DNA from: Paludisphaera borealis
GTDB taxonomy: Bacteria > Planctomycetota > Planctomycetia > Isosphaerales > Isosphaeraceae
Assembly: GCF_001956985.1 (NCBI RefSeq)
Contig: NZ_CP019082.1
Span: forward strand, 5,828,001 to 5,892,000
Length of the DNA stretch: 64,000 bases
Direction: 5' to 3'
Part shown: piece after piece, positions 55 to 28,793 of the stretch
Layout: every line of letters begins with the position of its first letter
Numbering within the stretch: position 1 is the stretch's first letter
Program-made: the position numbers and the translations under genes
Notes under the pieces: generated by a model
The model's input: the letters and a program-made list of their open reading frames with translations, nothing else
The model's database searches: none
Told to the model about the DNA's origin: nothing

Positions 55-83
55 CACGATCGCGGACGATGAGGAGCCTTACC

Positions 84-2724: not shown

Positions 2725-2733
2725 GGTGATGTC

Positions 2734-4012: not shown

Positions 4013-4034
4013 GGAATCGATTGGGGCGTTTCGC

Positions 4035-5074: not shown

Positions 5075-5104
5075 GGCCTCGCCCAAGAACGAGGGGAACG
5101 ACTC

Positions 5105-6448: not shown

Positions 6449-6472
6449 ACTACGGGCCTGACTCGCTGGGTT

Positions 6473-9751: not shown

Positions 9752-12700
9752 CTCAACTCATGGAACCCGAGACCATCGGTCGCGCCACGCCGAGCCGAGG
9801 TCTGAACCTGATCTCGCTGGCTCGTCCCTATTTCGGCCTGATCGTGCTGACGGCGGGCCTGCTGTCGGCGTACGGCGTCTATTCGATGTTCCGGATGCCC
9901 AGCGGCATCTACCCCGAGGTGAATTTCCCCCGGGTCGTCGTCATCGCGCAGACGCCGGGGCTGTCGGTCAAGGACGTCGAAGTCGCCGTGACCCGGCCGA
10001 TCGAGGAGGTCGTCAGTATCGTCCTGGGGGTCGAACGGGTGCGGTCGAAGTCGGTTCGGGGGGCTTCCGAGCTTTCGGTCGACTTCACCCCCGGAACGAA
10101 CATGATTCAGGCCCTCAACGACGTCCGCGCCCGGATGGCGGAGGTCGGGGCCAAACTGCCGCCGGGGACGACGACCCTGACCGAGCGGCAGACGCCGTCG
10201 GTCTTCCCGATCATCTCGTTCGTCGTCACGGGCGGCCGGAATCCCTCCGAGCTGCACGACTACGCCTATTACGTGCTGAGGCCGCGCGTCAGCCGCGTCC
10301 CCGACGTTTCGTACGCCACTGTGCAAGGCGGCGACGTCCGCGAGATCGTCGTCGAGGTCGATCCCCAGGCGCTGGTATCGGCCGGGCTGTCGATCTCCGA
10401 CGTGGCCGATCGGCTGAACAAGGAGCACCGGCTCAAGGCCGTCGGCCGGCTCGATCGGGGGACGCTCCAGTATCAGGTTCTGACCGACACGCTGGCGACC
10501 GACCCCCTCGACCTGGAGAACATCGTCGTAGCCGACAAGAACGCCCAGCCGATCCGCGTGAAGGATCTCGGCAAGGTGACAGTGTCGCACGAGGACCGCA
10601 TGGTGGCGACCCGGGCCAACGGCAAGGACGCCGTCGTCTTGACAGTCTTCCGACGCCTCGGAGGGAACACGCTGACGGTCTCGCGCGAGCTGGACGCGGC
10701 CCTCGCCGACGCGGCCAAAAACGCCCCGCCCGGCATCCACATCGAGCACGTCTACGACGAGGCGCTGCTGGTTCAGACGGCGATCGACAACGTCCGCGAC
10801 GCCATTTTCATCGGCGGCGCGCTCAGCGTCGTGGTTCTTCTGTTGTTTCTCCGAAGCGTGCGGGCCACGCTGATCGCCGCGCTGTCGATTCCCTTGAGCC
10901 TCGTCATCAGCTTTGTCTTCCTCAACCTGAGCGGCGACACGCTGAACCTGATGTCGCTGGGCGGCCTGGCGGTCGCGATCGGCCTGATCATCGACGATAC
11001 GGTGGTCGTGATCGAGAACATCGCGCGGCATATCGCCGACGGCGACCGCGGCGACGAGGCGGTGGACCGGGCCAGCAAGGAGATCAGCGGCGCGGTGGTC
11101 GGCTCGACCTTGACGACGATCCTAGTGTTCCTGCCGCTGGCCTTCGTCCAGGGGATGGTCGGGCAGTTCTTCCAGTCGCTCAGTCTGGCGCTGTCGGTCT
11201 CGCTGCTGGTGTCGATGGTGGTCAGTCTGACGATCATCCCCGTTCTCGCCGCCCGCTACCTGGGTCGTCGCCCGATGGCGCACAACGGCCCCGTCTACAA
11301 CTTCCTGGCGGACCGCTACGAAGGCCTGCTGAGGATCGGCCTGAGGTTCCCCCGGACGACCATCGCGCTGTTCGTCCTCGCCGTGGTCCCTCTGGTGTGG
11401 ATCTACTCGCAACTGGAGACGGGCTTCATGCCCGACATGGACGAGGGGACGTTCGTGCTCGACTACCAGATGCCCGTCGGCACTTCGCTCGAACAGACGG
11501 ACCGCGTGCTGCGGCGAGTCGAGGACGTGCTCTTGAAGACGCCGGACGTCGAGGGCTACATTCGCCGGACCGGGGCCGAGTTGGGCTTCTTCGCGACCGA
11601 GTCGTACACCGGCGACGTCCTCATCGTCTTGAAGCCCCGCAGCCAGCGCCGGCCGATGGCCGAGATCGTCGAGGAGCTTCGCGAAGCGATCCCCAAGGTG
11701 GTTCCCGAGCTGGAGACCGAGTTCGTTCCGACGATTCAGGACCAGGTCGACGACCTGGCCGGGGCCGAGAGCCCCATCGAGGTGAAGATCTTCGGCAGCG
11801 ACCAGGCGGAGCTTCGCAAGCTGGCCACCGAGGTCGGCGAGATCCTCGAAAAAATCTCCGGCGTGGTCGACGTCAATACAAACGTCGTGATGGGCAACCC
11901 CGACATCATGGTCCGTCCCGACAGCGTCCAGACGGCGCGGGTGGGCTTGTCGGTGATGGACGTCGAGAACCAACTTAACGCCGCGCTCTACGGCCAGGTG
12001 GCCAGCACGCTCCCCGAGCAGGACCGGATGACGAACATCCGGGTCCGCTACCCCGATCACATCCGGTACGATCGCGACCGGCTCGCCCAGTTGCCGATCA
12101 GCCTGGCGACCGCCGCGACTTCCGCCGCGCATTCGACCGCCGCTGCTGGGATCGGCTTCGTCCCGCTCGGCCAGCTTGCGACGATCCGTCTGATCCGCAG
12201 CCCCAACGAGCTGAAGCGCGAGAACCTTCAGCCGGTCATCAACGTCACGGCCTCGCTCGACAAGCGGGACCTGGGATCGGCCAACACGGAGATCCAGGCG
12301 AAGCTCTCGGAACTGAAGTTCCCGCCGGGCTACCGCTGGGAGGTGGCCGGCGACTTCAAATCGCAGCAGGATTCGTTCGCCAGCCTGTTGACCGTGTTGA
12401 TCGTCTCATCGGCCCTGGTCTTCCTGTTGCTGGGCTTTCAGTTCAAGAGCCTGACGCTGCCGATCCTGATCTTCCTGGCCCAGCCGATCTCGATCGCGAG
12501 CGCCTTCTTCGCGCTCTGGATCACCTCGACGCCGTTGAACATCTCGTCGTTCCTGGGCGCGATCCTCTTGATCGGCCTCGATGTCAAGAACGGGATCATC
12601 CTGATCGAATACATCGACCAGCTTCGCGCGGGGGGGATGCCGATCCGCGAGGCCGCGCTCAAGGCGGGTCGCGTCCGGTTCCGGCCCATCCTGATGACAA

Positions 12701-12882
12701 GCCTCTGCACGATTCTCGGCCTGGCGCCTTTGGCCCTGGGCATCGGACCTGGCGCGCAAATGCAGCAGCCGCTGGCGATCGCCGTGATCGGCGGCCTGTT
12801 CACCAACATGCTGTTGACCCGCCTGCTCATCCCGGTCGGCTACCTGGTGTTGAAGGGCGACGATAAGCCGGCGGCCGTCTGA
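9748..12882 (+). CDS. RND efflux transporter permease
   Basis: This 1044-residue AcrB-family proton antiporter has the expected two repeats of six membrane segments with large periplasmic loops. The TM4 proton-relay pair is D416-D417 in AIGLIIDDTVVVIEN. A DD pair is typical of hydrophobic/amphiphilic (HAE) pumps, whereas heavy-metal pumps usually show DAA-type motifs. It overlaps the adaptor gene by 4 bases, and regulator and sensor genes follow. Drug, solvent or metabolite export is more likely than metal export, but the context does not identify a substrate. Confidence 0.94.
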   Translation: MTQLMEPETIGRATPSRGLNLISLARPYFGLIVLTAGLLSAYGVYSMFRMPSGIYPEVNFPRVVVIAQTPGLSVKDVEVAVTRPIEEVVSIVLGVERVRSKSVRGASELSVDFTPGTNMIQALNDVRARMAEVGAKLPPGTTTLTERQTPSVFPIISFVVTGGRNPSELHDYAYYVLRPRVSRVPDVSYATVQGGDVREIVVEVDPQALVSAGLSISDVADRLNKEHRLKAVGRLDRGTLQYQVLTDTLATDPLDLENIVVADKNAQPIRVKDLGKVTVSHEDRMVATRANGKDAVVLTVFRRLGGNTLTVSRELDAALADAAKNAPPGIHIEHVYDEALLVQTAIDNVRDAIFIGGALSVVVLLLFLRSVRATLIAALSIPLSLVISFVFLNLSGDTLNLMSLGGLAVAIGLIIDDTVVVIENIARHIADGDRGDEAVDRASKEISGAVVGSTLTTILVFLPLAFVQGMVGQFFQSLSLALSVSLLVSMVVSLTIIPVLAARYLGRRPMAHNGPVYNFLADRYEGLLRIGLRFPRTTIALFVLAVVPLVWIYSQLETGFMPDMDEGTFVLDYQMPVGTSLEQTDRVLRRVEDVLLKTPDVEGYIRRTGAELGFFATESYTGDVLIVLKPRSQRRPMAEIVEELREAIPKVVPELETEFVPTIQDQVDDLAGAESPIEVKIFGSDQAELRKLATEVGEILEKISGVVDVNTNVVMGNPDIMVRPDSVQTARVGLSVMDVENQLNAALYGQVASTLPEQDRMTNIRVRYPDHIRYDRDRLAQLPISLATAATSAAHSTAAAGIGFVPLGQLATIRLIRSPNELKRENLQPVINVTASLDKRDLGSANTEIQAKLSELKFPPGYRWEVAGDFKSQQDSFASLLTVLIVSSALVFLLLGFQFKSLTLPILIFLAQPISIASAFFALWITSTPLNISSFLGAILLIGLDVKNGIILIEYIDQLRAGGMPIREAALKAGRVRFRPILMTSLCTILGLAPLALGIGPGAQMQQPLAIAVIGGLFTNMLLTRLLIPVGYLVLKGDDKPAAV

Positions 12883-12912
12883 CCCGAGCCGCTTTCGCAT
12901 GAAAGGCCGCAC

Positions 12913-13590
12913 ATGCCGCGCGTGCTGATCGTCGAGGATCAAAGGAAGCACCGGGAAAGCCTTCAGCGCGGCCTGGAGGCGGAAGGGTACGAGGTCGTCG
13001 CCGCGGCGACGGGCGAGGAAGGCTACGAAGCCGCGCTCAGCCAGGCGCCGGACGTCGTGGTTCTTGATCTGATGCTTCCCGGCCGGCACGGTCTCGACGT
13101 CCTCCGCGATCTGCGGGCCGTCGAGTTCAGCAAGCCGGTCTTGATCCTCACGGCGCTCGACGCGGTCGAAGAGCGAGTTCAAGGCCTGGACAGCGGCGCG
13201 AACGACTACCTGGTCAAGCCGTTCGCGTTCGCCGAGCTGCTCGCCCGACTCCGCGTCCTGTTGCGCAAGGACGTCAAGGAGCGGGAGTTGCTGCTGCGGG
13301 CCGACGACCTGGAGATGGACCTGCTCTCCCGCCGGGTCGCCCGGGGTGGAACCGTGCTCGATCTGACTCCCCGCGAGTACGAGCTGCTGGAATATCTGAT
13401 GAGCCATAGGAACGAGGTGGTGACCCGCGATATGATCGCGCTAGAGGTCTGGAAGGAGCCGACCGGATCGATGACGCGGATCATCGACGTTTACATCAAC
13501 GGCCTCCGCAAGAAGGTCGAGCAAGCCGGCCGGCTTCCGTTGATCCAGACCGTTCGCGGTGTCGGCTATGCATTGAGGGACGGCTCATGA
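12913..13590 (+). CDS. OmpR/PhoB-type response regulator
   Basis: This 225-residue regulator has a receiver domain (residues 1-115; phospho-acceptor D52 in VVLDLMLPG; K in YLVKPF) and a winged-helix DNA-binding domain (LTPREYELLEYLM ... YINGLRKKVE). It lies 30 bases after the pump gene and its stop overlaps the sensor start (ATGA). It most likely controls the efflux genes it sits beside. No binding site was identified. Confidence 0.94.
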   Translation: MPRVLIVEDQRKHRESLQRGLEAEGYEVVAAATGEEGYEAALSQAPDVVVLDLMLPGRHGLDVLRDLRAVEFSKPVLILTALDAVEERVQGLDSGANDYLVKPFAFAELLARLRVLLRKDVKERELLLRADDLEMDLLSRRVARGGTVLDLTPREYELLEYLMSHRNEVVTRDMIALEVWKEPTGSMTRIIDVYINGLRKKVEQAGRLPLIQTVRGVGYALRDGS

Positions 13591-15023: not shown

Positions 15024-15736
15024 TTCACGTAGCGGATCGCGCGGAGGTCTTGAACGACGATCAGGCCCCCTTCGACCATCTCCTCCAGGACCGGTAGGAT
15101 CTCGGCGATCCGGTCGGGGCGGTCGACGATCTCGATCTTCTCGGGCAGGCCCGCCGAGAGGCCGAAGAGATGGGTCCGGTGGATGACGGAGTGTTTGCCG
15201 AAGCCCAGGACGCCCAAGCTCGCCGTCGCGCCGGCCATGCCCAACGCCCGGCAGCGTTCGATGATCGCCATCGCCAGGTTGCCCCCTTGCCAGGTGTCGG
15301 AACTGCCGATGTAGACCGTGACCTTCTGGACGTCGCCTTCGATCGACATTTGAGCCCCTCCCTCCCGTGAGACCGCGAGGCGATCCGCCGTCGAGGCGAC
15401 GGCCTCCTCATGATGAGCGTAACGGACCACCCGGACGGGCTCGACGGTGACCAGGCCGTCCACGACCATCGTCGCCAGTCCGGCGACCAGCGCATCGACG
15501 CGGTCCGGGGCGTCGACGACCTCCATCACGACCGGGATGTCGACGAAACTATATTCATTCTTCGCGTCGCGCAGTCGGTGATGCGCGCCGAAGCTGAGGT
15601 CGACCAGGAAGACTGATGCGCCCGCCACCGGCAGGGCGCGGGCCGTTTCGACGGCCGCTCGGTACAAGGGCTGGCCGCGCCAGCGACGGCTGGCGTTGAG
15701 GTAGACGTGAAGCAGGCAGGACTCGGCTGGGATCAT
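14999..15736 (-). CDS. tandem DUF190 protein
   Basis: This 245-residue protein contains two DUF190 units. The first spans residues 1-110 (LHVYLNASRRWRGQPLYRAAVETARAL) and the second about 130-240 (VTVYIGSSDTWQGGNLAMAIIERCRAL). DUF190 proteins have a PII-like fold and often sit next to CrcB. Each unit has the expected ferredoxin-like pattern, ending VVRYAHH and AIRYVNH. The start at 15736 overlaps the crcB stop (ATGA). It may sense a ligand and tune fluoride or ion export; that is inference. Confidence 0.85.
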   Translation of the reverse strand: MIPAESCLLHVYLNASRRWRGQPLYRAAVETARALPVAGASVFLVDLSFGAHHRLRDAKNEYSFVDIPVVMEVVDAPDRVDALVAGLATMVVDGLVTVEPVRVVRYAHHEEAVASTADRLAVSREGGAQMSIEGDVQKVTVYIGSSDTWQGGNLAMAIIERCRALGMAGATASLGVLGFGKHSVIHRTHLFGLSAGLPEKIEIVDRPDRIAEILPVLEEMVEGGLIVVQDLRAIRYVNHPTSPKV

Positions 15737-16185
15737 GGCCTCTCCTTGCTCGGCGCCGCTTCGATCGTCGATGGTCGTTCGGCCACGGCGGCCCGCTCCC
15801 TGGCGGGGATCACGACGTCGCGAGCCAACGCCATCCCTGCGAGCGCGGCGGCCATCCCGACGACGAGGCTGCCGAACAGGTTGACGAGCGCCAGGTTCTT
15901 CTCCCCGCGATCCCAGAGCACGGCCGACTCGAAGGCCCAGGTCGAGAACGTCGTGTAGCCGCCTAGGAATCCGGTGAGGATCAAGAGTCGGACGTGGGGA
16001 TGCGGCAGCCAGCGCGCGAGCGTCATCGACAGGAACCCGATCGCGAACGACCCTGACATGTTGATCGTGAACGTGGCCCAGGGGGCGGCGGTCCACCGGC
16101 TCATCCAGACGCCCAGCCAGTAGCGGGCGTTGACCCCCAGCACGCCGCCGATCGAGAGCGAAATCACCCGCGTCCAGACCTCCAA
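15733..16185 (-). CDS. crcB: fluoride exporter FluC/CrcB
   Basis: This 150-residue four-helix channel exports fluoride as a dual-topology dimer. Key signatures are GGVLGVNARYWLG, FTINMSGSFAIGF (the Asn of helix 2) and GFLGGYTTFSTWAFE (the Phe/Thr track). It starts 12 bases downstream of the CocE-like stop and overlaps the DUF190 gene by 4 bases. With so short a gap there is no room for a fluoride riboswitch directly before it, so expression probably depends on read-through from 18093. Confidence 0.94.
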   Translation of the reverse strand: MEVWTRVISLSIGGVLGVNARYWLGVWMSRWTAAPWATFTINMSGSFAIGFLSMTLARWLPHPHVRLLILTGFLGGYTTFSTWAFESAVLWDRGEKNLALVNLFGSLVVGMAAALAGMALARDVVIPARERAAVAERPSTIEAAPSKERP

Positions 16186-18203: not shown

Positions 18204-19538
18204 TCAGCGCCCCAGTCCCAGCCGCTGGCGATGGTACGCGAGCCGGTCGGTCGGAGTCATGCGGGCGAAGTCGGGGCGTCCGTTGACCTGGAACGAGGGC
18301 GTCTCGCTCGCGGACGTCAGCTTCGACTCGGTGACCAGCGGCTTCGGCTGCTCGAAAACGGCCGCGAAGCTGTTGCCGTTGGCGTGGGTCGCCGCCGGCT
18401 TGCCGTGGTCGTGGCACGAGCAGGCGTGCGCGCCGTTGGACGAAGGCGAAGGCAGGGGCGCGGTCGTCGGTCCGACGGCCGCGGGTTGCGCCGGCACCGT
18501 CACGAGCCCGCCGCCCGCGTAGCTCATCGATTGCGTCGTGACCTTGAGGTCGTCTTCAAGCCGGCGCTGGGGCGCGACGCCCAGGCGGGCGAGGACCGCG
18601 TGGTACGCCTTCACGGCGTCGACCGGGCCGATCTGGCCGTCGACGATCAGCCGCAGGAACTGGACGAAGGCGAGCTGGTTCTCGGCGTTGTTGATCTTGC
18701 GACCGAACAGGGCCACCTTGGCGCCGTACTTCTGGGCGTCGGCCAGGAGCTGGAAGGCGTCGCGGGTGGTTCCCGACGAACCGCCGAGGATGCCGACGAT
18801 CAGGTTCCGGTCGAAGCGGACCAGTTCCTCCATCGCCTTGGGGCCGTGATACACGATCTTGAGGAAGTCCGGCCGACCCGCCGGGGCGACGCCCGCCAGC
18901 ATCCGGGTGATCATGTCGTTGAGGTAGTGTGGCACGATCGCGGGATCGAGGCCGGTCGCGACGTTCGGGTCGAAGACTTCGAGGAAGTAGCGAAAGCCCT
19001 TGCGCTCGGCCTCTTCGCGAAACGCGTGGAACCTTTCGAGCGTCTCCACGTCGCGCCGGAGGTCGTTGTTGAAGGTGACGCTGTAGAGCCCGAGGTTCGC
19101 TCCGCGCGTGCGCTCCTCGGGCGAGCAATCGAGGTGGCCGCACTGGGCGTGGTCGATGCTGGCGGTGCGGAAGGGCCGCGAGGCCTCGGCGGCGTAGGAC
19201 GAGCCGCGCGCCAGGTGGATGTCGGTCGTGTCGTTGGCGCGGATCGCCGGGGTGACGGCCGTGCCGTCGAACAGCCGCTCGCCGAACGTCAACGCGTAAT
19301 TCGAACTCGCCGACATGAGCATGATGTCGACCAGACCCTGACGGGTGATCAGCCGCATTTGCTCGCGGTACTGTTCAAGCGTCTTGAACCGCACCTCGCC
19401 CGCGTGCAACTCGGGCGACTGTCCCGGTGCGCCCAGGCCCGTCGCCATGTCGGCGTCCTTGGCGTCGGCGAGGATGAACTCGCCGCAGTTCGGATTCGCG
19501 TGAATGGCCGCGAGTTTTCGATCGAGCGACTTGATCAT
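18204..19538 (-). CDS. BMC-associated class I (DhnA/LsrF/DeoC-like) aldolase homologue
   Basis: This 444-residue protein has a TIM-barrel-like core up to about residue 320. FLKIVYHGP (K227, candidate Schiff-base lysine), LIVGILGGSSGTTRD and GAKVALFGRKINN resemble the terminal strands of DhnA/LsrF-type aldolases. A Pro/Ala/Ser linker with ACSCHDH (residues 372-378) follows, then an amphipathic C-terminal helix (DFARMTPTDRLAYHRQRLGL) that looks like an encapsulation peptide. It is the last gene of the BMC operon, 1 base after the dehydrogenase stop. Its substrate is unknown; it may handle another phosphorylated sugar or aldehyde inside the shell. Confidence 0.72.
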   Translation of the reverse strand: MIKSLDRKLAAIHANPNCGEFILADAKDADMATGLGAPGQSPELHAGEVRFKTLEQYREQMRLITRQGLVDIMLMSASSNYALTFGERLFDGTAVTPAIRANDTTDIHLARGSSYAAEASRPFRTASIDHAQCGHLDCSPEERTRGANLGLYSVTFNNDLRRDVETLERFHAFREEAERKGFRYFLEVFDPNVATGLDPAIVPHYLNDMITRMLAGVAPAGRPDFLKIVYHGPKAMEELVRFDRNLIVGILGGSSGTTRDAFQLLADAQKYGAKVALFGRKINNAENQLAFVQFLRLIVDGQIGPVDAVKAYHAVLARLGVAPQRRLEDDLKVTTQSMSYAGGGLVTVPAQPAAVGPTTAPLPSPSSNGAHACSCHDHGKPAATHANGNSFAAVFEQPKPLVTESKLTSASETPSFQVNGRPDFARMTPTDRLAYHRQRLGLGR

Positions 19539-19539
19539 C

Positions 19540-20637
19540 TCAGCGGCCCCCTCGGCCGTTGCCGTTGCCCAGTCCGGAAATCGTCACCCGCGAGCTGCCG
19601 CTCACGACGTTGCCGCCGCCCGAACCCATCGTCACTCGCACCGGGCGGGGGCCGGACTCGGCCGGCTTGCTGGACGACCCCGCGACGGCCTTGCCGGCGG
19701 CCTTGGGATTGGTCTTGAGCACCTGATCGATGGTCTCGCGAAGCACCTGCGCCGAGTGCTGAAGCGCCGAGGTTTCCTTCGGCCACAGCTCGATTTCAAG
19801 CTGCGACTGCACGCCCGAGCGGCCGACGACTGTGGGGACCGAGATGCAGACGTCGCGCATCCCGTACTGGCCGTTGACCAGCGACGAGACCGGCAGGATG
19901 CGCCGAGAGTCGAGGGCGATGGCGTGGACGACCTCGCGGATCGACAGGCCGACGGCGAAGCCCGCGCCACCTTTGAGCTTGATGACCTCGGCGCCGCTCC
20001 CCTTGGTCTTCGTGAACAGAGCGTCGGCCGTCGACGCGTTCCAGCCGGGGAACTTCTCCAGCGGCAGGCCGGCGGCCTGGGCGGCCGACCAGATGGGGAC
20101 CATGCTGTCGCCGTGCTCGCCGAGGATCGTCGCCGTGACCTGGGTCGCGGGCAGCTTCAGGTGGTCGGCGATCAGGCTGCGGAACCGGGCCGAGTCGAGC
20201 TGGGTCCCCAGGCCGATCACCTGCGAGGCGGGCAGGCCGAGCTGCGTCGTCGCCAGGTACGTCAGGACGTCGACGGGGTTCGAGACCACCAGGATGATCG
20301 CCTCCCGCTTCAGGCCGGCCGATTTGACGCTGCCGAGGATGCTCAGGAACAGCTCGACGTTGCGATTGATCAAGTCGAGGCGGCTCTCGTCAGGCTTGCG
20401 ACGGAGGCCCGCCGTGATCACGACGACGTCGCTTTCGGGGATGGCCTCGTAGCCCGTGGCCCGAATCCGCTGGTCGGCCACCAGCGACGCGCCGTGCAGC
20501 AGGTCGAGGGCCTGGCCCTTGCAGCCGTCGGCGTTGAGGTCCATCAGGTCGAGACCGCTGACGAGGCCCCCGCACTGGAGGGCGTAAGCCGCGCACGACC
20601 CGACCAGGCCGCCGCCGCCGATGATGCTGACCTTCAT
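19540..20637 (-). CDS. lactate/malate-type dehydrogenase of the BMC operon
   Basis: This 365-residue NAD-dependent 2-hydroxyacid dehydrogenase has a Rossmann start (VSIIGGGGLVGSCAAYAL), D148/R151 (QLDSARFR) and catalytic H175 (GEHGDS). The specificity loop reads TAGLRRKPDESRLDL; aligned to LDH/MDH the discriminating residue is R80, as in malate dehydrogenases, while the following ESRLDL is LDH-like. A low-complexity Gly/Ser/Asn tail of about 50 residues (from about 310) is extra to the family. In the pathway it may interconvert lactate and pyruvate or recycle NAD. AGGAG lies before the ATG. Confidence 0.87.
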   Translation of the reverse strand: MKVSIIGGGGLVGSCAAYALQCGGLVSGLDLMDLNADGCKGQALDLLHGASLVADQRIRATGYEAIPESDVVVITAGLRRKPDESRLDLINRNVELFLSILGSVKSAGLKREAIILVVSNPVDVLTYLATTQLGLPASQVIGLGTQLDSARFRSLIADHLKLPATQVTATILGEHGDSMVPIWSAAQAAGLPLEKFPGWNASTADALFTKTKGSGAEVIKLKGGAGFAVGLSIREVVHAIALDSRRILPVSSLVNGQYGMRDVCISVPTVVGRSGVQSQLEIELWPKETSALQHSAQVLRETIDQVLKTNPKAAGKAVAGSSSKPAESGPRPVRVTMGSGGGNVVSGSSRVTISGLGNGNGRGGR

Positions 20638-20681: not shown

Positions 20682-21656
20682 TCACTTGCCGGTGCCGCTG
20701 AGGGCGCTCATGACCTGTTCGGTGATCGACCGGACCAGGGCGTCGACGTCGGGGCTCGATACGCCGCCGTTTCCGTTCGACGACGGCTGGGCCTGGGCCT
20801 TGGGGGCCGCGACGGCCGCCGGGGCGTCGTGGGAGTGGCACGAGCAGGCGTTGGATTCGCCCGACTGGGTCGCCTGGTTGAGCAACTTGGGATGGATGAA
20901 GACGCGGGGCTCGGGGCTGAAGTCGCCGTAGCCTTCGCGGAACAGGCTGTTGCCGCAGAGGTCGCAGTTTTCGAGCCCGAGCCCGAGCCGGGGGTCGGGG
21001 ATGCCGAGACCGGGCTTGAGCCTGAGCAGTTCGGCGGCCTTCTCGTCCGAGTAGTAGTTCACCCGGCCGAGCTGCTTGGCCAGCAGCAGAATCCGGCAGT
21101 AGGCGTCGATGATCTCGGTCTTGAAGTAGGCGTCTTCGAGGTCGATGCCCGAGGTGATCGTGCCGTGGTTGGCCAGCAGGATCGTGTCGGTGTCCTTGGC
21201 GTACGGCAGGATCGTGTCGGCGAACTTCTGGCCGCCGGGGGTCTCATAAGGGGAGATGGCGACCTCGCCCAGGAAGACCTCGATCTCGGGGAGCACGCAC
21301 TTGGGGATCGGCTCCTTGGCGACGGCGAAGGCCGTGGCGTGGGGCGGGTGGCAGTGGACGACCGAGCGGATGTCGGGCCGAGCCTTCATGTAGGTCAGGT
21401 GGAGCAGCATCTCGCTCGAACGCTTCCGCTTGCCGGAGATCTGCTTGCCTTCGAGGTCGATGATGCACAGGTCGTCGGGCTTCATGAAGCCCTTCGAGAC
21501 GCGGGTCGGCGTGCAGAGGACGCGGTCCTCGCTCAGCCGGTAGCTGATGTTGCCGTCGTTGGCCGCCGCGAAACCCTTGGCGTAGATCCGCCGGCCGATC
21601 TCGCACATCTGCTCCCGCAGCTTCCACTCGTTCATGACGTTGCCGTTCGTGCTCAT
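20682..21656 (-). CDS. class II fuculose/rhamnulose-1-phosphate aldolase, BMC-targeted
   Basis: This 324-residue zinc aldolase should cleave L-fuculose-1-P or L-rhamnulose-1-P to DHAP and L-lactaldehyde. Zinc ligands are H101/H103 (HCHPPHA) and H164 (ANHGT); the catalytic glutamate is E82 (SSEM). Beyond the catalytic domain come CDLCG (231-235), ACSCHSH (270-276), a Pro/Ala/Gln linker and the encapsulation-type helix VDALVRSITEQVMSAL (304-319). The ATG at 21656 has GAGGGG upstream; a start at 21746 is longer than family norms. It sits 62 bases after a shell gene. Confidence 0.92.
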   Translation of the reverse strand: MSTNGNVMNEWKLREQMCEIGRRIYAKGFAAANDGNISYRLSEDRVLCTPTRVSKGFMKPDDLCIIDLEGKQISGKRKRSSEMLLHLTYMKARPDIRSVVHCHPPHATAFAVAKEPIPKCVLPEIEVFLGEVAISPYETPGGQKFADTILPYAKDTDTILLANHGTITSGIDLEDAYFKTEIIDAYCRILLLAKQLGRVNYYSDEKAAELLRLKPGLGIPDPRLGLGLENCDLCGNSLFREGYGDFSPEPRVFIHPKLLNQATQSGESNACSCHSHDAPAAVAAPKAQAQPSSNGNGGVSSPDVDALVRSITEQVMSALSGTGK

Positions 21657-21718
21657 GGCTTGCCCCTCGCCGTCGTCAGAAGTTTTCCGGGATTCGTATC
21701 GTTTGTTTCGTCTGCGAT

Positions 21719-21997
21719 TCAGAATGAGAGCTGGTCGATCAGGCACGCGCAGTAGGCGTCGATCGGCGTCTTTTGCTTGCCGAACGGGTTTGCGGCCTCG
21801 CCGCCCTCGCTGAGGCCGATCAAGGCGCCGACTCCCGCGCCCAGCCGGTCGTACACGACGACCTCGTCGCCGCGCTCCGGACCGCCGTCCCTCAAGGCCG
21901 ACAGCGGCATGGGCAACGCCAGGGCGAACCGGCCGCCGCGGAGGCTGGGATGCGACCGAGACAGCGTGACCCGACCGATGACTTCGGCGATCCTCAT
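21719..21997 (-). CDS. BMC-P pentameric shell protein (EutN/CcmL)
   Basis: This 92-residue vertex protein begins MRIAEVIGRVTLSRSHPSL, has VVVYDRLGAGVGALIGLSEG in the middle and PIDAYCACLIDQL at the end, the standard EutN/CcmL beta-barrel layout. Five copies cap a shell vertex. Its ATG overlaps the stop of the RpiB-like gene. It is one of three BMC-P paralogues in the operon, which differ enough to occupy different vertices or assembly states. Confidence 0.93.
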   Translation of the reverse strand: MRIAEVIGRVTLSRSHPSLRGGRFALALPMPLSALRDGGPERGDEVVVYDRLGAGVGALIGLSEGGEAANPFGKQKTPIDAYCACLIDQLSF

Positions 21998-22776
21998 CCT
22001 TCCGTCTCCTTCAGCCATGACGGCCGTTCGGCGAACCGAGGCGCTCCGGCCTGTCGGAAGGCGGTCGCCAGTTGCTTGATCCACGACAGCGATTTGCCGG
22101 TCGGCTCGACCACGATCAGGTTCGCGCCCATCGACCGCGAGGCGCGGTGGACGTCGGCCGGCTCGGCGGCGACCGCCGCGCGAACTCCGGGGGCCTGGCA
22201 GGCTCGCCAGACCGCGAGCGCCCCGTCGGTCGTCACCAGGAGCGCGCCTCGTCCCTCGCCAGCCTGAATCCAGCCCGAAAGATCGTCGAGCGCCGGCCCT
22301 AGCTCGGTCCAGCGGCCGGCGTCTTCCAGCAACGACCGTCGCAGAGCGTGAAGGTATCCGAGGTCGGAGTCGATCGCGAACGCCCATTCGCCGCGCGCCG
22401 ACGCCCCGAACTCCGTGAGACCCGCGAGCTGGATGACGACGCCTTGCCGCTTCATCAGGTCGCGGGCCAGGGGGGTGACGACCGTTCCGGGGGCGATCCG
22501 GACCACCCGCGTTCCGGGCGAAAGCGTCTCGGCGTGACGGAGCGAGAACAGCCGATCGGCGAACACCGGGGCCGACGCGCGTTGCGCCGGCCGCGTCGCC
22601 GCGTGCAGCTCGGCGAGGACCGTCCGGACGGCCGCGTCGACGATCGAGATCGGGTCGGGGCCGAACGACGGCGAACCGAAGGCGCGCGGCGACGGCGGCA
22701 GGCTGGCGCCCCGCGTCCCGACCGCGATCCGACTGTTCAACGTCGACTGCAACATCAGAAAAACGTCCTCGATCAA
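21994..22776 (-). CDS. BMC-operon protein with RpiB-like C-terminal half
   Basis: This 260-residue protein is not confidently assigned. Residues 90-120 (VVRIAPGTVVTPLARDLMKRQG) resemble the TPxARD motif of EutT-like and other BMC-associated proteins. The C-terminal half (ACQAPGVRAAVAAEPADVHRASRSMGANLIVVE) follows the pattern of RpiB/LacAB sugar-phosphate isomerases, but the catalytic CGTG motif is absent (VTTDGALAV instead). It could be a degenerate isomerase, an assembly factor or a ligand-binding scaffold. Its stop overlaps the next BMC-P start. Confidence 0.72.
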   Translation of the reverse strand: MIEDVFLMLQSTLNSRIAVGTRGASLPPSPRAFGSPSFGPDPISIVDAAVRTVLAELHAATRPAQRASAPVFADRLFSLRHAETLSPGTRVVRIAPGTVVTPLARDLMKRQGVVIQLAGLTEFGASARGEWAFAIDSDLGYLHALRRSLLEDAGRWTELGPALDDLSGWIQAGEGRGALLVTTDGALAVWRACQAPGVRAAVAAEPADVHRASRSMGANLIVVEPTGKSLSWIKQLATAFRQAGAPRFAERPSWLKETEG

Positions 22777-22783
22777 CCTGTGC

Positions 22784-23041
22784 TTATCTGCGATCCGGAA
22801 CCGCCAGGACGCTCCAGCGCCCCGGCGAGTTGATTCCGACCATTTCCCGGAGAATTTTCGCGTCGGTCGTGCACATCACCAGGTCGCCTCGGCCGGCGCC
22901 CAACCGATCGAAGACCAGGACGGGTTCGCCGTCCGGGCCGCCGTCGGCGGTTTCAAGCTGAACGACGAGCAGCCGTTCACCCTGAAACGTCGGGTCTTTC
23001 ACCGTGGAGGTCGCCGTTCCGACGACTTGGCCGAGCTGCAT
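22784..23041 (-). CDS. BMC-P pentameric shell protein (EutN/CcmL)
   Basis: This is the shortest vertex protein of the operon at 85 residues. It has MQLGQVVGTATSTVKDPTF, LLVVQLETADG, PVLVFDRLGAGRGDLVMCTTD and a final MVGINSPGRWSVLAV. The GAGxGDxV pore-side turn is typical. It lies between the aldehyde dehydrogenase and the RpiB-like gene on the same strand and should be co-translated with them. Confidence 0.93.
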   Translation of the reverse strand: MQLGQVVGTATSTVKDPTFQGERLLVVQLETADGGPDGEPVLVFDRLGAGRGDLVMCTTDAKILREMVGINSPGRWSVLAVPDRR

Positions 23042-23067: not shown

Positions 23068-24498
23068 TCAGGCGAACCGCAAGCCGCCGGTGACGGCGGT
23101 CCGGCGCTGGCGGCAGAAGGTCAGGGGGGTGGTGACGCCCTCGCCGGTCGGGCCGGCGATCGAGAACGAAGGGACGCCTTCGCCGCCGGCGCCCAGCCCC
23201 GCGATGCTCGGGCCGTTGATGACGAAGATCGTGCAGTCCATCACCTTGCCCATCTTCGACATCACCGAGACGTCGCGCGAGTGGAGCACGGCGGTGTGGC
23301 CGAAGTCGTGTTCGCTCTCCTTCGCCAGGGCGATGGCGCGGTCGACGTTCGGGACCTTCACGAACGGCACGAAGGGCATCATCTGCTCTTCCTGCACGAA
23401 CGGATGGTCGAAGCCGGTTTCGCCGTAAAGGAGCTGCGTGCCTTCGGGAACCCTGATGCCCGCGAACTCGGCGAGGAAGGCCGGGTCCTTGCCGACGAGG
23501 TCCTTGTTGACGTGCGGCTTGCCGTCGGAGCCGGTCTCGAAGGCCGCGCGGGTGAGGGACTCGATCTGCGGGGCCGAGAGCCGGAAGCCGCCGTGCTTGG
23601 CCATCGTGTCGAGCAGCTTGTCGAAGATCTCGGCGACGGCGAAGACCTGCTTCTCGCCGATGCAGAGCAGGTTGTTGTCGAAGGCGCCGCCGATCACGAT
23701 CGACTTGGCCGCGTTGTCGAGGCAGGCGGTGGCGTCGACGACGACCGGCGGGTTGCCGGGGCCGGCGACGATCGCGCGGCGCTTGCTCGCCAGCGCCGCC
23801 CGGGCGACGGCCGGACCGCCGGTCACGACCAGGAGCCGGATCTTCGGGTTCTCGAACAGGCCGGCGGCCGTCTTGAGAGTCGGCGGGTCGATGATCGTGA
23901 TCAGGTTCTCAAGGCCCGTCGCCTCGGCGATCGCCTTGTTGAACAGCCGGACGCCGTGGGCCGCGATGTTCGAGCCCGACGGGTGGGCGTTGACGACCAT
24001 CGTGTTGCCGGACGCCAGCATGTTGATGGCGTTGGCGGCCAGCGTCGGCAGGCTGTGGGTGACCGGCGTGATGGCCCCGATGACGCCGAACGGCGTGTAG
24101 TCGGTGAGCGTCAGGCCGTCGTCGCCGCTGTTGAGATCGGTGCGGAGGTACTCGACGCCCGGGATCAGCGGAATCGTCCCCCGCAGCTTGGCGATCTTGT
24201 GGTCGAGCCGGCCGATCTTGGTCTCTTCAAGCTCCAGCCGGCCCAGCTCTTCGGCCTGCTCGACGCAGATGTCGCGGATGCAGGAGACGGCCTTCTTGCG
24301 GTCGGCCAGGCTGCTGTTGCGGAACGTCTGGAAGGCCGATTCGGCCGCGTCGACCGCCGCTTCGACGGTCGGGAACACGCCGTAGTCGCCCCCGGACGCC
24401 TTGCCGTTGCTGCTGCCGTTGGTGGGAGCGGCCCCGGTCCCCATCTGGTTGAGGACCTGCTGGACCACGCTGCGGATCAGATCTTCACTCATTTGCAT
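23068..24498 (-). CDS. CoA-acylating aldehyde dehydrogenase, BMC-targeted
   Basis: This 476-residue PduP/EutE-like enzyme oxidises an aldehyde, here presumably lactaldehyde, to acyl-CoA with NAD. The N-terminal SEDLIRSVVQQVLNQMG is a classic encapsulation helix followed by a Gly/Ser/Asn linker. The catalytic cysteine is C279 (DNNLLCIGEKQV); NAD-site motifs include TPVTHSLPT and VTGGPAVARAAL. Two close starts exist (ATG at 24498 and at 24492); the first is given, without a decisive RBS. It shares the operon with PduL, which uses its acyl-CoA product. Confidence 0.94.
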   Translation of the reverse strand: MQMSEDLIRSVVQQVLNQMGTGAAPTNGSSNGKASGGDYGVFPTVEAAVDAAESAFQTFRNSSLADRKKAVSCIRDICVEQAEELGRLELEETKIGRLDHKIAKLRGTIPLIPGVEYLRTDLNSGDDGLTLTDYTPFGVIGAITPVTHSLPTLAANAINMLASGNTMVVNAHPSGSNIAAHGVRLFNKAIAEATGLENLITIIDPPTLKTAAGLFENPKIRLLVVTGGPAVARAALASKRRAIVAGPGNPPVVVDATACLDNAAKSIVIGGAFDNNLLCIGEKQVFAVAEIFDKLLDTMAKHGGFRLSAPQIESLTRAAFETGSDGKPHVNKDLVGKDPAFLAEFAGIRVPEGTQLLYGETGFDHPFVQEEQMMPFVPFVKVPNVDRAIALAKESEHDFGHTAVLHSRDVSVMSKMGKVMDCTIFVINGPSIAGLGAGGEGVPSFSIAGPTGEGVTTPLTFCRQRRTAVTGGLRFA

Positions 24499-24571
24499 GG
24501 CGGACACCGGGGGTTTTGGGCCTGGTCGAAAATCCAAATGTGTTTCGCGGTACGAGCCGGGGGCGGGCCGT

Positions 24572-24889
24572 TCAGCCGTCGCTTCGCGTCGAGTAGACGA
24601 CCTGGCCGCGGAGATCGACGGTGTCGACCAGTCCGATCACCACGGCGTCGATGGGGAGCTTGTCGGTCTCCGGCGTCAGCCGGGCGCTCGAGCCCTGGCA
24701 GATCAGGACCATCTCGTCGATCCCGGCGCCCAAGGTGTCGACGACGACGAACGTCCGGCCCGTGGGGACCAGGCGGTCGCGGCTCTTGTCGTCGATCCGG
24801 TAGGGCTCGACGATGAGCAGCTTTTGTCCGGTCATCGAGGCGACCTTCTGGGTCGCCACCACGCTTCCAGTCACCCGGGCCAGGAACAT
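24572..24889 (-). CDS. BMC-P pentameric shell protein (EutN/CcmL)
   Basis: This is the longest vertex protein here, at 105 residues. MFLARVTGSVVATQKVASM opens the barrel, LLIVEPY and FVVVDTLGAGIDEMVLICQGSSAR follow, and PIDAVVIGLVD near the end is conserved in the family. The extra length lies in the DDKSRDRLVPTGR loop. It sits between the kinase and the aldehyde dehydrogenase. Confidence 0.94.
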   Translation of the reverse strand: MFLARVTGSVVATQKVASMTGQKLLIVEPYRIDDKSRDRLVPTGRTFVVVDTLGAGIDEMVLICQGSSARLTPETDKLPIDAVVIGLVDTVDLRGQVVYSTRSDG

Positions 24890-24935: not shown

Positions 24936-26141
24936 TCACGCGGACGAGCGGGCGCCCGATTTCAGCAAGGCTTCCGACTGGCGGGCGACGACGAGTTCCT
25001 CGTTCGTCGGCACGGTCCAGACTTCGACGCGCGAGCCGTCGGCCGAGACCCGGCGCTCGGCCGGCCCCTTGGCGTTCCGCTCGGGATCGAGGGTGATTCC
25101 GAACCATTCGAGTTCGCGGCAGGTCTCGGAGCGAATCCACTGCGAGTTCTCGCCGATGCCGCCGGTGAAGACGATCGCGTCGGCTCCGCCCAGTTCGAGG
25201 AGGTAGGCCCCGAGGTAGTGGCGGATCGAGGCGACGAACAGGTCGATGGCCAGCTTGGAGCGGGCTTCGCCGGCCGCCGCCGCCGCTTCGATGTCGCGGA
25301 GGTCGCGGTGTCCGGAGATCCCTTCGAGACCCGACTGATTGGCCAGGATGTCGAGGATCTCTTCCAGGCTCTTGCCCGTCTCGCGGAGCAGGACGGGGAG
25401 GGCGAAGACGTCGAAATCGCCGACCCGATTGTTGTGGGGCAGGCCCGATTGCGGGCTCATGCCGAGGCTGCACGCCACCGACTCGCCGTTGCGAATCGCC
25501 GTCAGCGACGAGCTGCCGCCGAGGTGGCAGGAGATCACCTTGATGTCTTTGCGGCCGAGCAGCTCGGGCATTCGCCACGAGATGTAGCGATGGCTCGCGC
25601 CGTGGAAGCCCCAGCGGCGGACGCCCAGGCGGGTCGACCAGTCGTCGGGGATCGCGTAACGCTGGGCCGCTTCGGGGATCGTCCGGTGGAACCCGGTCTC
25701 GTACGCCGCGACCAGCGGGAGGTTCGGGAAGCGTTCCCGGAGCATCCGCATGGCCTTTGTGTAGGGGGGATTGTGGGCCGGGCAGACGTCGGCGAACGCC
25801 TCCATCGCTTCCAGCACCGGCTCGTCGACCAGGTGGACCCCGGTGAGGTTGCGGGCGTGGACCGCCTTGAAGCCGATCGCCGAGACGTCGGACGCGTCGT
25901 CGAGCACCCCGATCTCGGGGTCGGTCAACTGGTCGAGGCAGAGCTGGACCGCATCGCCGTGGTCGGCGATCGGCCGGTCCATCTCGCGCTCGCCCTTGAT
26001 CGACTTGATCACGATCTTGGCCGAGGGGGCGCCGATGCGCTCGATCGCCCCTCGGGCCAGGACTGGCTCGGCCGGGTCGCCCAGGTCGAACAGGCGGTAC
26101 TTGAAGCTGGTGCTGCCCAGATTCGCGACGAGGATCTTCAA
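24936..26141 (-). CDS. acetate-kinase-family acyl kinase with altered active site
   Basis: This 401-residue ASKHA kinase should convert acyl-phosphate plus ADP to carboxylate plus ATP, ending the BMC pathway (probably lactyl-phosphate). Family motifs are ILVANLGSTSFKY, RRWGFHGASHRY, VFTGGIGENS and TNEEL. Aligned to Methanosarcina AckA, N7, S10 and S12 are kept, the R241 equivalent is kept (NNRVGDFD), but H90-R91 become F91-K92 (IGFKAVH) and D148 becomes E148 (AYETGFH). These are conservative changes at catalytic positions. The start overlaps a BMC-H stop. Confidence 0.9.
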   Translation of the reverse strand: MKILVANLGSTSFKYRLFDLGDPAEPVLARGAIERIGAPSAKIVIKSIKGEREMDRPIADHGDAVQLCLDQLTDPEIGVLDDASDVSAIGFKAVHARNLTGVHLVDEPVLEAMEAFADVCPAHNPPYTKAMRMLRERFPNLPLVAAYETGFHRTIPEAAQRYAIPDDWSTRLGVRRWGFHGASHRYISWRMPELLGRKDIKVISCHLGGSSSLTAIRNGESVACSLGMSPQSGLPHNNRVGDFDVFALPVLLRETGKSLEEILDILANQSGLEGISGHRDLRDIEAAAAAGEARSKLAIDLFVASIRHYLGAYLLELGGADAIVFTGGIGENSQWIRSETCRELEWFGITLDPERNAKGPAERRVSADGSRVEVWTVPTNEELVVARQSEALLKSGARSSA

Positions 26142-26422
26142 CGCGACCCTCCCGCGTACGCCTGGACGATGGCCTGACCGGGACGGGGGATGACATGCGC
26201 GGCGCGAAGTTCGCCGCTCTTGGAAGCGGCCTCGGCGCCGGCCTCGACCGCTGCGCGGACGCTGCTGACGTCGCCCCGCACCATCACGCTGACGACGCCG
26301 CCGTCGAGCTTGATGATCGGGCTGGCCAGCTCGACGCTCGCCGCCTTGAGCATGGCGTCGACCGAGGTGATCAAACAGACCAGGCCCATCGTCTCGATCA
26401 GGCCCAGCGCGTTGCCGTTCAT
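26138..26422 (-). CDS. BMC-H hexameric shell protein
   Basis: This 94-residue shell tile has the Pfam BMC pattern: ALGLIETMGLVCLITSVDAML, GGVVSVMVRGDVSSVRAAVEAGAEAA and AAHVIPRP. Hexamers tile the facets and their central pore passes small molecules. It overlaps the kinase start (ATGA). It lacks the N- and C-terminal extensions of the other two paralogues. Confidence 0.95.
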   Translation of the reverse strand: MNGNALGLIETMGLVCLITSVDAMLKAASVELASPIIKLDGGVVSVMVRGDVSSVRAAVEAGAEAASKSGELRAAHVIPRPGQAIVQAYAGGSR

Positions 26423-26473: not shown

Positions 26474-26797
26474 TCAGCCGATGAACGTCCGGAGGACGGC
26501 GGGATCGGGACGAGGGATCACGTGGGCGCTGACCAACTCGCCGACCCGGCTGGCAGCCTCGGCGCCGGCTTCGACGGCCGCGCGAACGCTGCCGACGTCG
26601 CCGCGGACCAGGGTCGTGATGAACGCCCCGCCGACGGAGATCTTGCCGGCCAGGGTGACGTTCGCCGCCTTGAGCATCGCGTCGGTCGCCTCGATGACGC
26701 CGACCAGCCCCTTGGTCTCGATCAAGCCCAGTGCTTCGCCGTTCACGTTGCTGCTCCCGATGTTCGTTCGCGTCGCGGGTTTTTGTGCGGTCGCCAT
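26474..26797 (-). CDS. BMC-H hexameric shell protein with N-terminal extension
   Basis: This 107-residue tile carries about 18 extra N-terminal residues (MATAQKPATRTNIGSSN) before ALGLIETKGLVGVIEATDAML. The core has GGAFITTLVRGDVGSVRAAVEAGAEAA and SAHVIPRPDP. The ATG at 26797 is used; a longer frame to 26881 runs into the neighbouring shell gene. Only 4 bases separate it from that gene's stop. Confidence 0.95.
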   Translation of the reverse strand: MATAQKPATRTNIGSSNVNGEALGLIETKGLVGVIEATDAMLKAANVTLAGKISVGGAFITTLVRGDVGSVRAAVEAGAEAASRVGELVSAHVIPRPDPAVLRTFIG

Positions 26798-26801
26798 GGC
26801 G

Positions 26802-27131
26802 TCAAGCCCCCCCGTTCGAGCCGGCCTTGCCAGCGGCGGCCTGGGCCTTGTTGAACGACAGGATGCCGCCGAGGTCTTCATGCGGGCGGGGGATCACCTG
26901 GACGCTGACGACCTCGCCGATCCGGCTGGCTGCCGCCGCGCCGGCGTCGACCGCCGCCTTCACCGCCGCCACGTCGCCGGCCACGAAGGCCGTGACCAGG
27001 CCGCTGCCGACCTTGTCCCAGCCGACCAGCTCGACGTTGGCCGCCTTGAGCATGGCGTCGCTCGCCTCGACCAGCGCCACGAATCCCTTGGTCTCGATCA
27101 TTCCGAGCGCTTCGATAGATGCTGAGGCCAC
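26802..27131 (-). CDS. BMC-H hexameric shell protein with C-terminal extension
   Basis: This 109-residue tile opens [21 protein letters not shown] and closes [15 protein letters not shown], followed by a tail rich in Ala/Gly/Asn (about 20 residues). It is the first shell gene of the operon, 84 bases downstream of pduL. Its higher position in the transcript fits a role as the major tile, which is inference. Confidence 0.95.
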
Positions 27132-27215: not shown

Positions 27216-27899
27216 TCACGCCTTGGTCAAGATCACGTTGCTGGCGTGCGACAGGTCGCACGCGTTGGCTTCGTCGGTGTCGATGTGCACCTCCAGCTTC
27301 CAGTCCGGATGGGTCCGGACGAGCAGGCCCTCCAGGGTGCTGGGGCAGGTGCTTTCCACCCTCATGTTCATCCGGTCCAGGTGCTTCACGCCGTAGTACT
27401 CGGCGTCCTCGGGTCCCATGTGGACGTGCCGCTCGGCCCGGATCACGCCGTTGGGCATCGCCAGCGACCCCTTGGGGCCGATCAGGAGGCAGCCGGGAGT
27501 TCCCTCGATGTCGCCCGAGAGCCGGACCGGCACGTCGATGCCCAGGCTGATGGCGTCGGTGAACGCCAGCTCGACCTGGCTGAACTTGCGGCAAGGGCCG
27601 AGGATGCGCACGCCGGGGATCATCCGCTGCCGAGGGCCGACCACCGCGACCGTCTCGTTGGCCGCGAAGTCGGTGTCCTGATAGAGCCGCTTCATCGCCG
27701 TGAGCTGGTAGCCCTGGCCGAACAGGACGTCGACGTCGGCCTGCGTCAGATGGCAGTGACGCGCCGAGATGTTGACGACCACCTTGGGCGGAACCGTCGC
27801 CGTCGCGTGGCCGTTGGTCGGCAACGCGCCGTTCAGATGCTTCAGGATGATCGAGCGGACCAGGTTTTCGACCTGGTCGCGGGTCGCCGTTGCACTCAT
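27216..27899 (-). CDS. pduL: PduL-type phosphotransacylase, BMC-targeted
   Basis: This 227-residue enzyme transfers the acyl group from CoA to phosphate inside the shell, regenerating CoA. The N-terminal helix RDQVENLVRSIILKHLNG is an encapsulation peptide. Two zinc-site clusters are visible: H48/H50 (SARHCHL) and H158/H160 (ERHVHM), with H205 (EVHID). The conserved GPRQRM loop contributes the catalytic arginine region. Its ATG overlaps the stop of the DeoR gene. Confidence 0.95.
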   Translation of the reverse strand: MSATATRDQVENLVRSIILKHLNGALPTNGHATATVPPKVVVNISARHCHLTQADVDVLFGQGYQLTAMKRLYQDTDFAANETVAVVGPRQRMIPGVRILGPCRKFSQVELAFTDAISLGIDVPVRLSGDIEGTPGCLLIGPKGSLAMPNGVIRAERHVHMGPEDAEYYGVKHLDRMNMRVESTCPSTLEGLLVRTHPDWKLEVHIDTDEANACDLSHASNVILTKA

Positions 27900-28729
27900 A
27901 CCTCGGTCCTCACACTCTGATTGCGAGTCGATTCGTGGGGGACGACCCCGTTCGAGCCGTGTTGTTCATCCGCCGGCGCGGTGTGGACGACGACTCCGGC
28001 CGCTTCGAGCGTCGTCCGGTACGCATCGGGCATCCGGGAATCGCTGACCAGCCGGGCGACCTCTTCGAGGCCGCACAGCCGCGAGAGGGCCAGCCGGCCG
28101 AACTTGGTCGAGTCGGCCACGATGACGACCTCTTGCCCGCAGGCCATCATCTGCCGCTCGGTCTCGACCAGAAGGAGATTCGAGTTGTAGATCCCGTCGG
28201 CCATGATCCCGCCGGCCCCCAGGATCGCCTTGCGGACCCGGATGCCCTGCATCATGGCGATCGCCAGCGGCCCGAGCGCCACGCCCGTCCGGGGATAGAC
28301 GTAGCCGCCGATCAGGATCAGGTCGGTCTGCTGGCTCGACGCCACGAGCTGGGCGATCGGCAGGCTGTTGGTGACGACCTGGATCCGCCGCCCGATCAAC
28401 GCCCGGGCGACCTCAAGGGTCGTGGTGCCGCCGTCGAGCAAGACCGTGTCGCCGTCTTCGAGCAGGGCCGCCGTCGCCTGGCCGATCGCACGCTTCTCGG
28501 CCGCCGCCGTCTGCGTCCGCTCGTCGAAGGCCGGCATGGCGCGGACCTCGCCCGAGTAAACCGCGCCGCCGTGCGTCCGCTTCACCGAACCCGCCAGGTC
28601 CAGCGATTCCAGATCGCGGCGGACCGTGCTCTCCGACACCCCGAGCGACTTCACGAGCTCTTCGAGCGTCGCAAAGCCCTGGCGGGAGATCAGTTCGAGC
28701 AGTTGTCGCCGGCGGGTCTCAGGCAGCAT
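27896..28729 (-). CDS. DeoR family transcriptional regulator of the BMC operon
   Basis: This 277-residue regulator has an N-terminal DeoR helix-turn-helix (RRRQLLELISRQGFATLEELV ... SESTVRRDLESL) and a sugar-phosphate-sensing C-terminal domain (LLDGGTTTLEVARAL, LGAGGI, VIVADSTKFGR). The ATG at 28729 (MLPETRRRQ) matches how the family begins and has AGGG 5 nt upstream; a TTG at 28771 is possible. It is the first gene of the operon, so it probably represses its own promoter until a sugar-phosphate inducer binds. Confidence 0.93.
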   Translation of the reverse strand: MLPETRRRQLLELISRQGFATLEELVKSLGVSESTVRRDLESLDLAGSVKRTHGGAVYSGEVRAMPAFDERTQTAAAEKRAIGQATAALLEDGDTVLLDGGTTTLEVARALIGRRIQVVTNSLPIAQLVASSQQTDLILIGGYVYPRTGVALGPLAIAMMQGIRVRKAILGAGGIMADGIYNSNLLLVETERQMMACGQEVVIVADSTKFGRLALSRLCGLEEVARLVSDSRMPDAYRTTLEAAGVVVHTAPADEQHGSNGVVPHESTRNQSVRTEV

Positions 28730-28766
28730 GAACGCCCTGTTCTGGAAGAATTCTCGCACGACATCC

Positions 28767-28793
28767 GTCAATAGTGTCTATCGTGGTCAATAG
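28767..28793. promoter_or_regulatory. direct repeats before the BMC operon (candidate DeoR operator)
   Basis: GTCAATAG occurs at 28767-28774 and again at 28786-28793, 19 bases apart from start to start, with a third GTCAA at 28797-28801. On the minus strand the last one forms TTGACA (28801-28796), a perfect -35 element for the operon; no -10 at the ideal 17-base spacing stands out. DeoR-type repressors often bind such spaced repeats over the promoter. Confidence 0.45.

Follow-up and report, generated by a model that had tools for sequence, protein, structure and literature searches.

Microcompartment (BMC) types take their names from one aldehyde-making signature enzyme. In the PVM (fucose/rhamnose) microcompartment this enzyme is a class II aldolase, accompanied by a CoA-acylating aldehyde dehydrogenase (AldDH), the phosphotransacylase PduL, an acetate kinase-family enzyme (AckA), a lactate/malate-dehydrogenase-like protein (LDH-like), a DeoR-family regulator and the shell proteins BMC-H and BMC-P. 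Another type, the SPU microcompartment, uses the class I aldolase DeoC (PMC8217296, PMC4207490). The 64,000-nucleotide stretch of the Paludisphaera borealis genome analysed here (the window) contains every component of the PVM locus, and its operon adds a putative class I aldolase, which we call AldI and which is not named in the sections on PVM microcompartments of PMC4207490, PMC8217296 and PMC8857213. The SPU microcompartment and the one described here would then both have a class I aldolase supplying the BMC aldehyde, AldI belonging to another aldolase branch and being combined with the PVM shell and enzymes.

A PVM operon with two aldolases

The operon occupies the minus strand from position 28771 to 18204; it is a complete PVM microcompartment operon, syntenic with those of relatives. 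It opens with the DeoR-family regulator (27896..28771; PF00455/PF08220) and PduL (27216..27899; PF06130, E=1e-71), followed by three BMC-H shell proteins, one matched by Pfam (26474..26881; PF00936, E=1e-26) and the flanking two assigned from their reading frames and conservation in PVM loci (26802..27131 and 26138..26422). AckA (24936..26141; PF00871, E=1e-100) precedes the first of three BMC-P shell vertex proteins (24572..24889; an ORF for which the tblastn query matches the same position in PVM loci), AldDH (23068..24537; NF011927, E=1e-171), which carries an N-terminal encapsulation-peptide-like helix, the second BMC-P (22784..23041; PF03319, E=4e-19), a hypothetical protein (21994..22776) and the third BMC-P (21719..21997; PF03319, E=1e-18, over ORF residues 131-218). 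Next is the class II aldolase, AldII (20682..21746; PF00596, E=3e-46), which has an amphipathic, encapsulation-peptide-like C-terminal helix and the true start of which probably lies downstream of the ORF start. The LDH-like gene (19540..20637; Pfam Ldh_1_N, E=3e-33) and AldI (18204..19538) complete the series.

AldI is an ORF of 444 aa whose start codon lies 1 nt past the stop of the LDH-like gene, and it is kept as the last PVM gene in relatives. An earlier sequence-only reading of the window had proposed a class I-type aldolase at the end of the operon, alongside the known class II enzyme; coordinates and terminal position of the gene agree with this proposal, the gene being on the minus strand, and AldII is indeed retained. 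The genome also encodes RhaA and FucI, the canonical rhamnose and fucose isomerases; ketohexokinase was not found in it.

The hypothetical protein amid the BMC-P genes bears a faint resemblance to RpiB/LacAB (PF02502, E=0.1) and to the NCBIfam D-erythrulose-4-P isomerase model (E=0.14). Among relatives it is either poorly conserved (22-61%) or not found.

Fold, active site and family of AldI

An AlphaFold2 model of AldI, built with 74 sequences, confirms the suspected TIM barrel: residues 1-340 (18519..19538, minus strand) form eight strands (22-27, 72-75, 96-100, 149-155, 183-189, 226-229, 248-251 and 275-278), with pLDDT mostly above 90, and the alignment of short relatives ends at Y340. Lys227, previously singled out as the candidate Schiff-base lysine, is located on strand 6 (codon 18858..18860, minus strand). 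It is invariant in all 114 sequences of a planctomycete-based set and in all 35 of another set, 16 of them proteobacterial homologues. The sequence-only reading would have been refuted by a predicted fold lacking a barrel active site or by a Lys227 not conserved among orthologues; neither was observed. The expected phosphate-site loops also have candidates, G252-G253 and G279-R280, which are likewise invariant in both sets. Besides these five positions, D25, K27, D28, D30, D71, R100, N102, D103, E187, D208, E286, Y312 and H313 never vary among the 114 sequences, and all of them except D103 are also invariant in the 35-sequence set. Glu187 (codon 18978..18980, minus strand), on strand 5, is a candidate acid/base and would occupy the position of the LacD/YihT glutamate, as judged from the fold and a MAFFT alignment only.

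The best structural matches in the PDB (Foldseek) are LsrF (3glc, E=5.6e-10) and LacD (3mhg, 6.3e-10), followed by ADH synthase (2qji, 2.4e-9) and archaeal FBP aldolase (2yce/1w8s), with modest TM-scores of 0.42-0.47 by query and 0.55-0.77 by target. A profile of 30 diverse AldI members matched LsrF with 72% probability (E=3.4e-5), K227 falling on the lysine of the LsrF motif IIKTYY. In the proposed comparison with LsrF, FbaB and DeoC, LsrF is the closest fold; profile comparisons with FbaB and YihT were not significant. DeoC was tried as a relative and rejected, since it was absent from the best 50 Foldseek matches, reached a profile probability of 0.3% and had no Pfam match in AldI.

Sequence-level recognition is poor. 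Pfam returned no match at E 1, and both single-sequence and profile searches of PDB sequences gave nothing usable. The NCBIfam models for 2-amino-3,7-dideoxyheptulosonate synthase and class I FBP aldolase match weakly over residues 166-312, the best score being 20.8 bits against a curated cut-off of 241, with 13 bits for the archaeal FBP aldolase model; the LsrF model (PRK08227) gives weak, below-cut-off matches in some homologues and none for the AldI of the window. AldI passes no Pfam or NCBIfam cut-off, and its fold and strand-6 lysine fit a DhnA-like class I aldolase outside the named families. With the DhnA/LsrF/ADH-synthase/archaeal FBP aldolase family it shares the (beta/alpha)8 fold, the strand-6 lysine and the GG and GR phosphate loops, whereas it differs in its strand-5 glutamate, its gene context and its full-length sequence, which stays below Pfam/NCBIfam recognition. 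With LacD and YihT (tagatose-bisphosphate and sulfofructose-phosphate aldolases) it would have in common, by alignment, both the strand-5 Glu and the strand-6 Lys. The model and the invariant residues support the assignment of AldI as a class I (Schiff-base) aldolase.

Linker and C-terminal tail

Beyond the barrel, residues 341-411 (18306..18518, minus strand) form a disordered linker with pLDDT below 50. It leads to a conserved C-terminal motif, PDFxxMxxxxRLAYHRxRL (residues 421-444; 18207..18278, minus strand), within which AlphaFold2 predicts a helix at residues 429-439 (pLDDT ~88). The motif was matched in 95 of 114 sequences, most of the others being stand-alone types, and both motif and linker are absent from the short stand-alone relatives, which end at about residue 340.

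A short terminal helix behind a flexible linker, present only in the cargo form, is what is expected of an encapsulation peptide. The hydrophobic moment of the AldI helix is only 0.31, however, compared with 0.52 and 0.56 for the encapsulation peptides of AldII and AldDH, and 62% of shuffles reach it; unlike those two tails, the AldI helix is therefore not amphipathic. The helix described earlier as encapsulation-like merits that name for its location and its distribution; its sequence is of a different type. We regard the tail as a candidate targeting element of a different kind from typical encapsulation peptides, and its distribution supports AldI as a putative cargo of the organelle. It also offers a natural comparison of forms with and without a tail for the study of organelle targeting.

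Association with the microcompartment

Of 18 context stretches of relatives, 16 have AldI at the end of the PVM operon or inside it, and two have it at another place in the genome. A scan of named genomes, from which the best 80 matches (nearly all Planctomycetota) were taken, gave about 63 loci linked to PVM genes, 14 unlinked and 3 at contig ends. Across 199 genomes of the class, 116 encode both AldI and BMC-P, 2 AldI only, 39 BMC-P only and 42 neither (Fisher p=5e-18, uncorrected for shared ancestry). When the short type is left out, all 106 AldI-bearing genomes possess BMC-P vertex genes, which makes AldI an optional yet BMC-bound component. Some BMC genomes have an AldI copy outside the BMC locus, with mixed and uninformative neighbours (sulfatases, TPR proteins, nitrilases).

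The probable genome of Planctopirus limnophila, the organism in which the PVM organelle was characterised, contains a PVM locus with its class II aldolase; AldI was not found there and is thus dispensable for the characterised pathway. More than half of the genomes sampled in the class carry this conserved second aldolase and the probable model organism lacks it, which suggests that the commonest planctomycete organelle acts on a wider range of substrates than has been appreciated. The occurrence of RhaA does not follow that of AldI, with RhaA in about 24 of 106 AldI-bearing and 8 of 39 AldI-lacking BMC genomes, and neither FucI nor ketohexokinase separates the two groups across the class. The data consequently fit a broadening to further diastereomers and a role on new substrates alike.

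The AldI homologues of two genomes (G131, G457) contain in-frame stops and are possible pseudogenes or assembly errors.

Phycisphaerae loci without a class II aldolase

Two loci from Phycisphaerae (L116, positions 9653-13154, and L125, positions 2-3369) have AldI directly after the third BMC-P and contain neither a class II aldolase nor an LDH-like gene. After AldI come a flavo-iron-sulfur protein resembling RnfC/PduS and a protein that carries two tandem BMC domains. Both genomes are MAGs, but in each the genes of the locus follow one another without a break. No class II aldolase homologue turned up elsewhere in the genome of L116, whereas that of L125 encodes one on a different contig, with no PVM genes around it. 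The two loci fall inside a Phycisphaerae clade most other members of which keep both aldolases, so the loss of the class II enzyme looks derived. In this lineage AldI replaces the class II aldolase.

Stand-alone relatives

Tail-less AldI proteins occur in the vicinity of enzymes of sugar metabolism. Two are encoded near a D-lyxose isomerase (Lyx_isomer) and a ketohexokinase (L150, L152), L150 also with a GH38 alpha-mannosidase; three adjoin PfkB kinases (L151, L153 and L160, with a 4-base overlap in L160); and one lies beside an aldehyde dehydrogenase (L154). A longer form from a genome region without a BMC locus (L120) likewise adjoins a PfkB kinase. The L150 genes (4524-11469) look like a mannose module composed of the GH38 alpha-mannosidase, the lyxose/mannose isomerase, the ketohexokinase and the tail-less AldI, an arrangement suggesting a route from mannose through fructose-1-P to DHAP and glyceraldehyde.

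Homologues are also present on 47 plasmid records, mostly from Rhizobiaceae and two from Vibrio nigripulchritudo. They are mostly 41-54% identical to AldI, 330-343 aa long in the copies read and labelled 'hypothetical protein' where annotated. Shinella and Pararhizobium share the order sugar ABC transporter, AldI, PfkB kinase, with a 4-base overlap between AldI and the kinase. Agrobacterium, Martelella, Rhizobium daejeonense, Shinella and Vibrio combine AldI with an FGGY kinase, a GlpD-like FAD dehydrogenase and an ABC transporter; Sinorhizobium americanum and Pleomorphomonas combine it with a polyol SDR and an ADP-PFK/GK-like kinase, and Lichenicola with a DHA kinase, while the Aureimonas cluster has two sugar kinases. 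As a group, the rhizobial and Vibrio plasmid loci (L167-L183) are uncharacterised sugar/polyol operons built from ABC transporters, FGGY or PfkB kinases and GlpD-like dehydrogenases.

The main argument for the function of AldI comes from these contexts: the enzymes encoded nearby form or consume sugar phosphates but do not cover aldol cleavage, a step that AldI would supply. From gene content, we infer that it holds the place expected of an aldolase that splits a ketose-1-phosphate, giving DHAP and an aldehyde. A measured activity would put a name to a gene family found in several phyla.

Proposed function of AldI and alternatives

We consider it probable that AldI is a Schiff-base aldolase whose cleavage of a ketose 1-phosphate yields DHAP together with a short 2-hydroxyaldehyde, and that it is additional enzymatic cargo of the PVM organelle. 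Several observations count against this reading: scores for named aldolase families that stay far under the curated cut-offs, the modest TM-scores, a terminal helix that is not amphipathic, AldI copies lying apart from the BMC locus in some BMC genomes, and a RhaA distribution independent of AldI. The GG252-253 and GR279-280 loops would hold the phosphate of the substrate, Lys227 would form an imine with C2 of the ketose, and Glu187 and Asp25 would carry out the proton transfers, assisting C3-C4 cleavage. A precedent for such products is YihT, which yields DHAP and a lactaldehyde-like compound. AldI would constitute a second source of toxic aldehyde inside the organelle, and this aldehyde would enter the shared tail of the pathway, passing to acyl-CoA (AldDH), acyl-phosphate (PduL) and acid (AckA) while the LDH-like protein recycles NAD+. 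Evolutionarily, a free-standing aldolase of sugar/polyol catabolism may have been recruited by the organelle, gaining the linker and the terminal motif on the way.

The likeliest role of such an enzyme is that of admitting further ketose-1-phosphates, be they other diastereomers or pentulose and hexulose phosphates giving glycol-, lact- or glyceraldehyde. The idea of a second substrate class sharing the same aldehyde tail, put forward in the sequence-only reading, survives in this form; deoxyribose-phosphate, one of its examples, is an unlikely substrate given the missing DeoC fold and profile matches. Since AldI is widespread, is additional to the class II aldolase and is the sole locus aldolase in one lineage, the PVM organelle probably acts on a broader set of sugars than hitherto assumed.

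A narrower role is rather unlikely but deserves the most weight among the alternatives. AldI might be an isoenzyme that cleaves L-fuculose-1-P and L-rhamnulose-1-P as AldII does, each aldolase taking one diastereomer or AldI acting as a metal-independent back-up, with no new substrate class. In chemistry this is a sub-case of the preferred explanation; it is a rival in role. The shared operon and lactaldehyde tail, the ability of AldI to be the only aldolase of the L116 and L125 loci and the rhamnose and fucose isomerases encoded in the genome all agree with it, as does the loose C4 stereochemistry of LacD-type class I aldolases. It accounts less well for the lack of AldI in many BMC genomes, the probable P. 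limnophila genome among them, for relatives residing in operons for other sugars and polyols, and for the failure of RhaA to track AldI.

The FBP and tagatose-bisphosphate aldolases among the nearest solved structures raise the question of whether AldI is instead a bisphosphate aldolase that condenses DHAP with glyceraldehyde-3-P and so removes DHAP, possibly in the cytosol. Bisphosphate substrates are possible, because in the archaeal route through ketohexokinase another kinase acts before an FBP aldolase (PMC11519228). Nevertheless, most of the inspected clusters have no obvious bisphosphate-forming kinase pair (Aureimonas, with its two sugar kinases, being the one to note), the tail is restricted to the BMC type, AldI co-occurs with BMC genes and the archaeal FBP aldolase model scores low; we judge this function improbable.

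Slightly more improbable still is a thiolase of the LsrF kind, transferring the acyl group of a phosphorylated diketone to CoA (to give DHAP and acyl-CoA) and so feeding CoA recycling within the shell. LsrF is the top structural and profile match and the organelle does have a CoA cycle, but LacD and FBP aldolases match nearly as well, the relatives keep company with ketose-phosphate-making kinases and isomerases, and no lsr-type genes were seen among the inspected loci. A DeoC-like deoxyribose-phosphate aldolase, for which the SPU microcompartments provide the precedent, can be dismissed with near confidence, as the relatives adjoin ketose/polyol kinases and isomerases rather than nucleoside genes and the fold and profile comparisons already exclude kinship with DeoC.

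Returning to AldI as a ketose-1-phosphate aldolase, a more far-reaching interpretation is possible, although we hold it tentatively and would not yet lean towards it. AldI may stand for a family of class I aldolases for ketose-1-phosphates, unnamed and spread across phyla, from which the PVM organelle obtained both a second signature enzyme and a targeting tail of a new type. PVM shells would in that case act as general compartments for 2-hydroxyaldehydes and serve several sugars. The Phycisphaerae loci in which AldI is accompanied by the RnfC/PduS-like protein and the tandem BMC protein, with no class II aldolase, would form a separate microcompartment type with a class I aldolase alone. No report of a PVM BMC containing a class I aldolase, or of an alditol/FGGY aldolase, emerged from a literature search, an earlier mention within a locus table being possible. 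The PVM organelle and class I aldolases are known kinds; as far as these searches go, their combination, the replacement of the class II enzyme and the cross-phylum family are new.

Other genes of the window

Two further groups of genes were noted by eye only. Hydrogenase-maturation-like genes (a protease, HypA-like and HypB-like) lie near the left end of the window (3288-5074), and a CrcB-like fluoride exporter adjoins DUF190-like repeats at 15061-16185.
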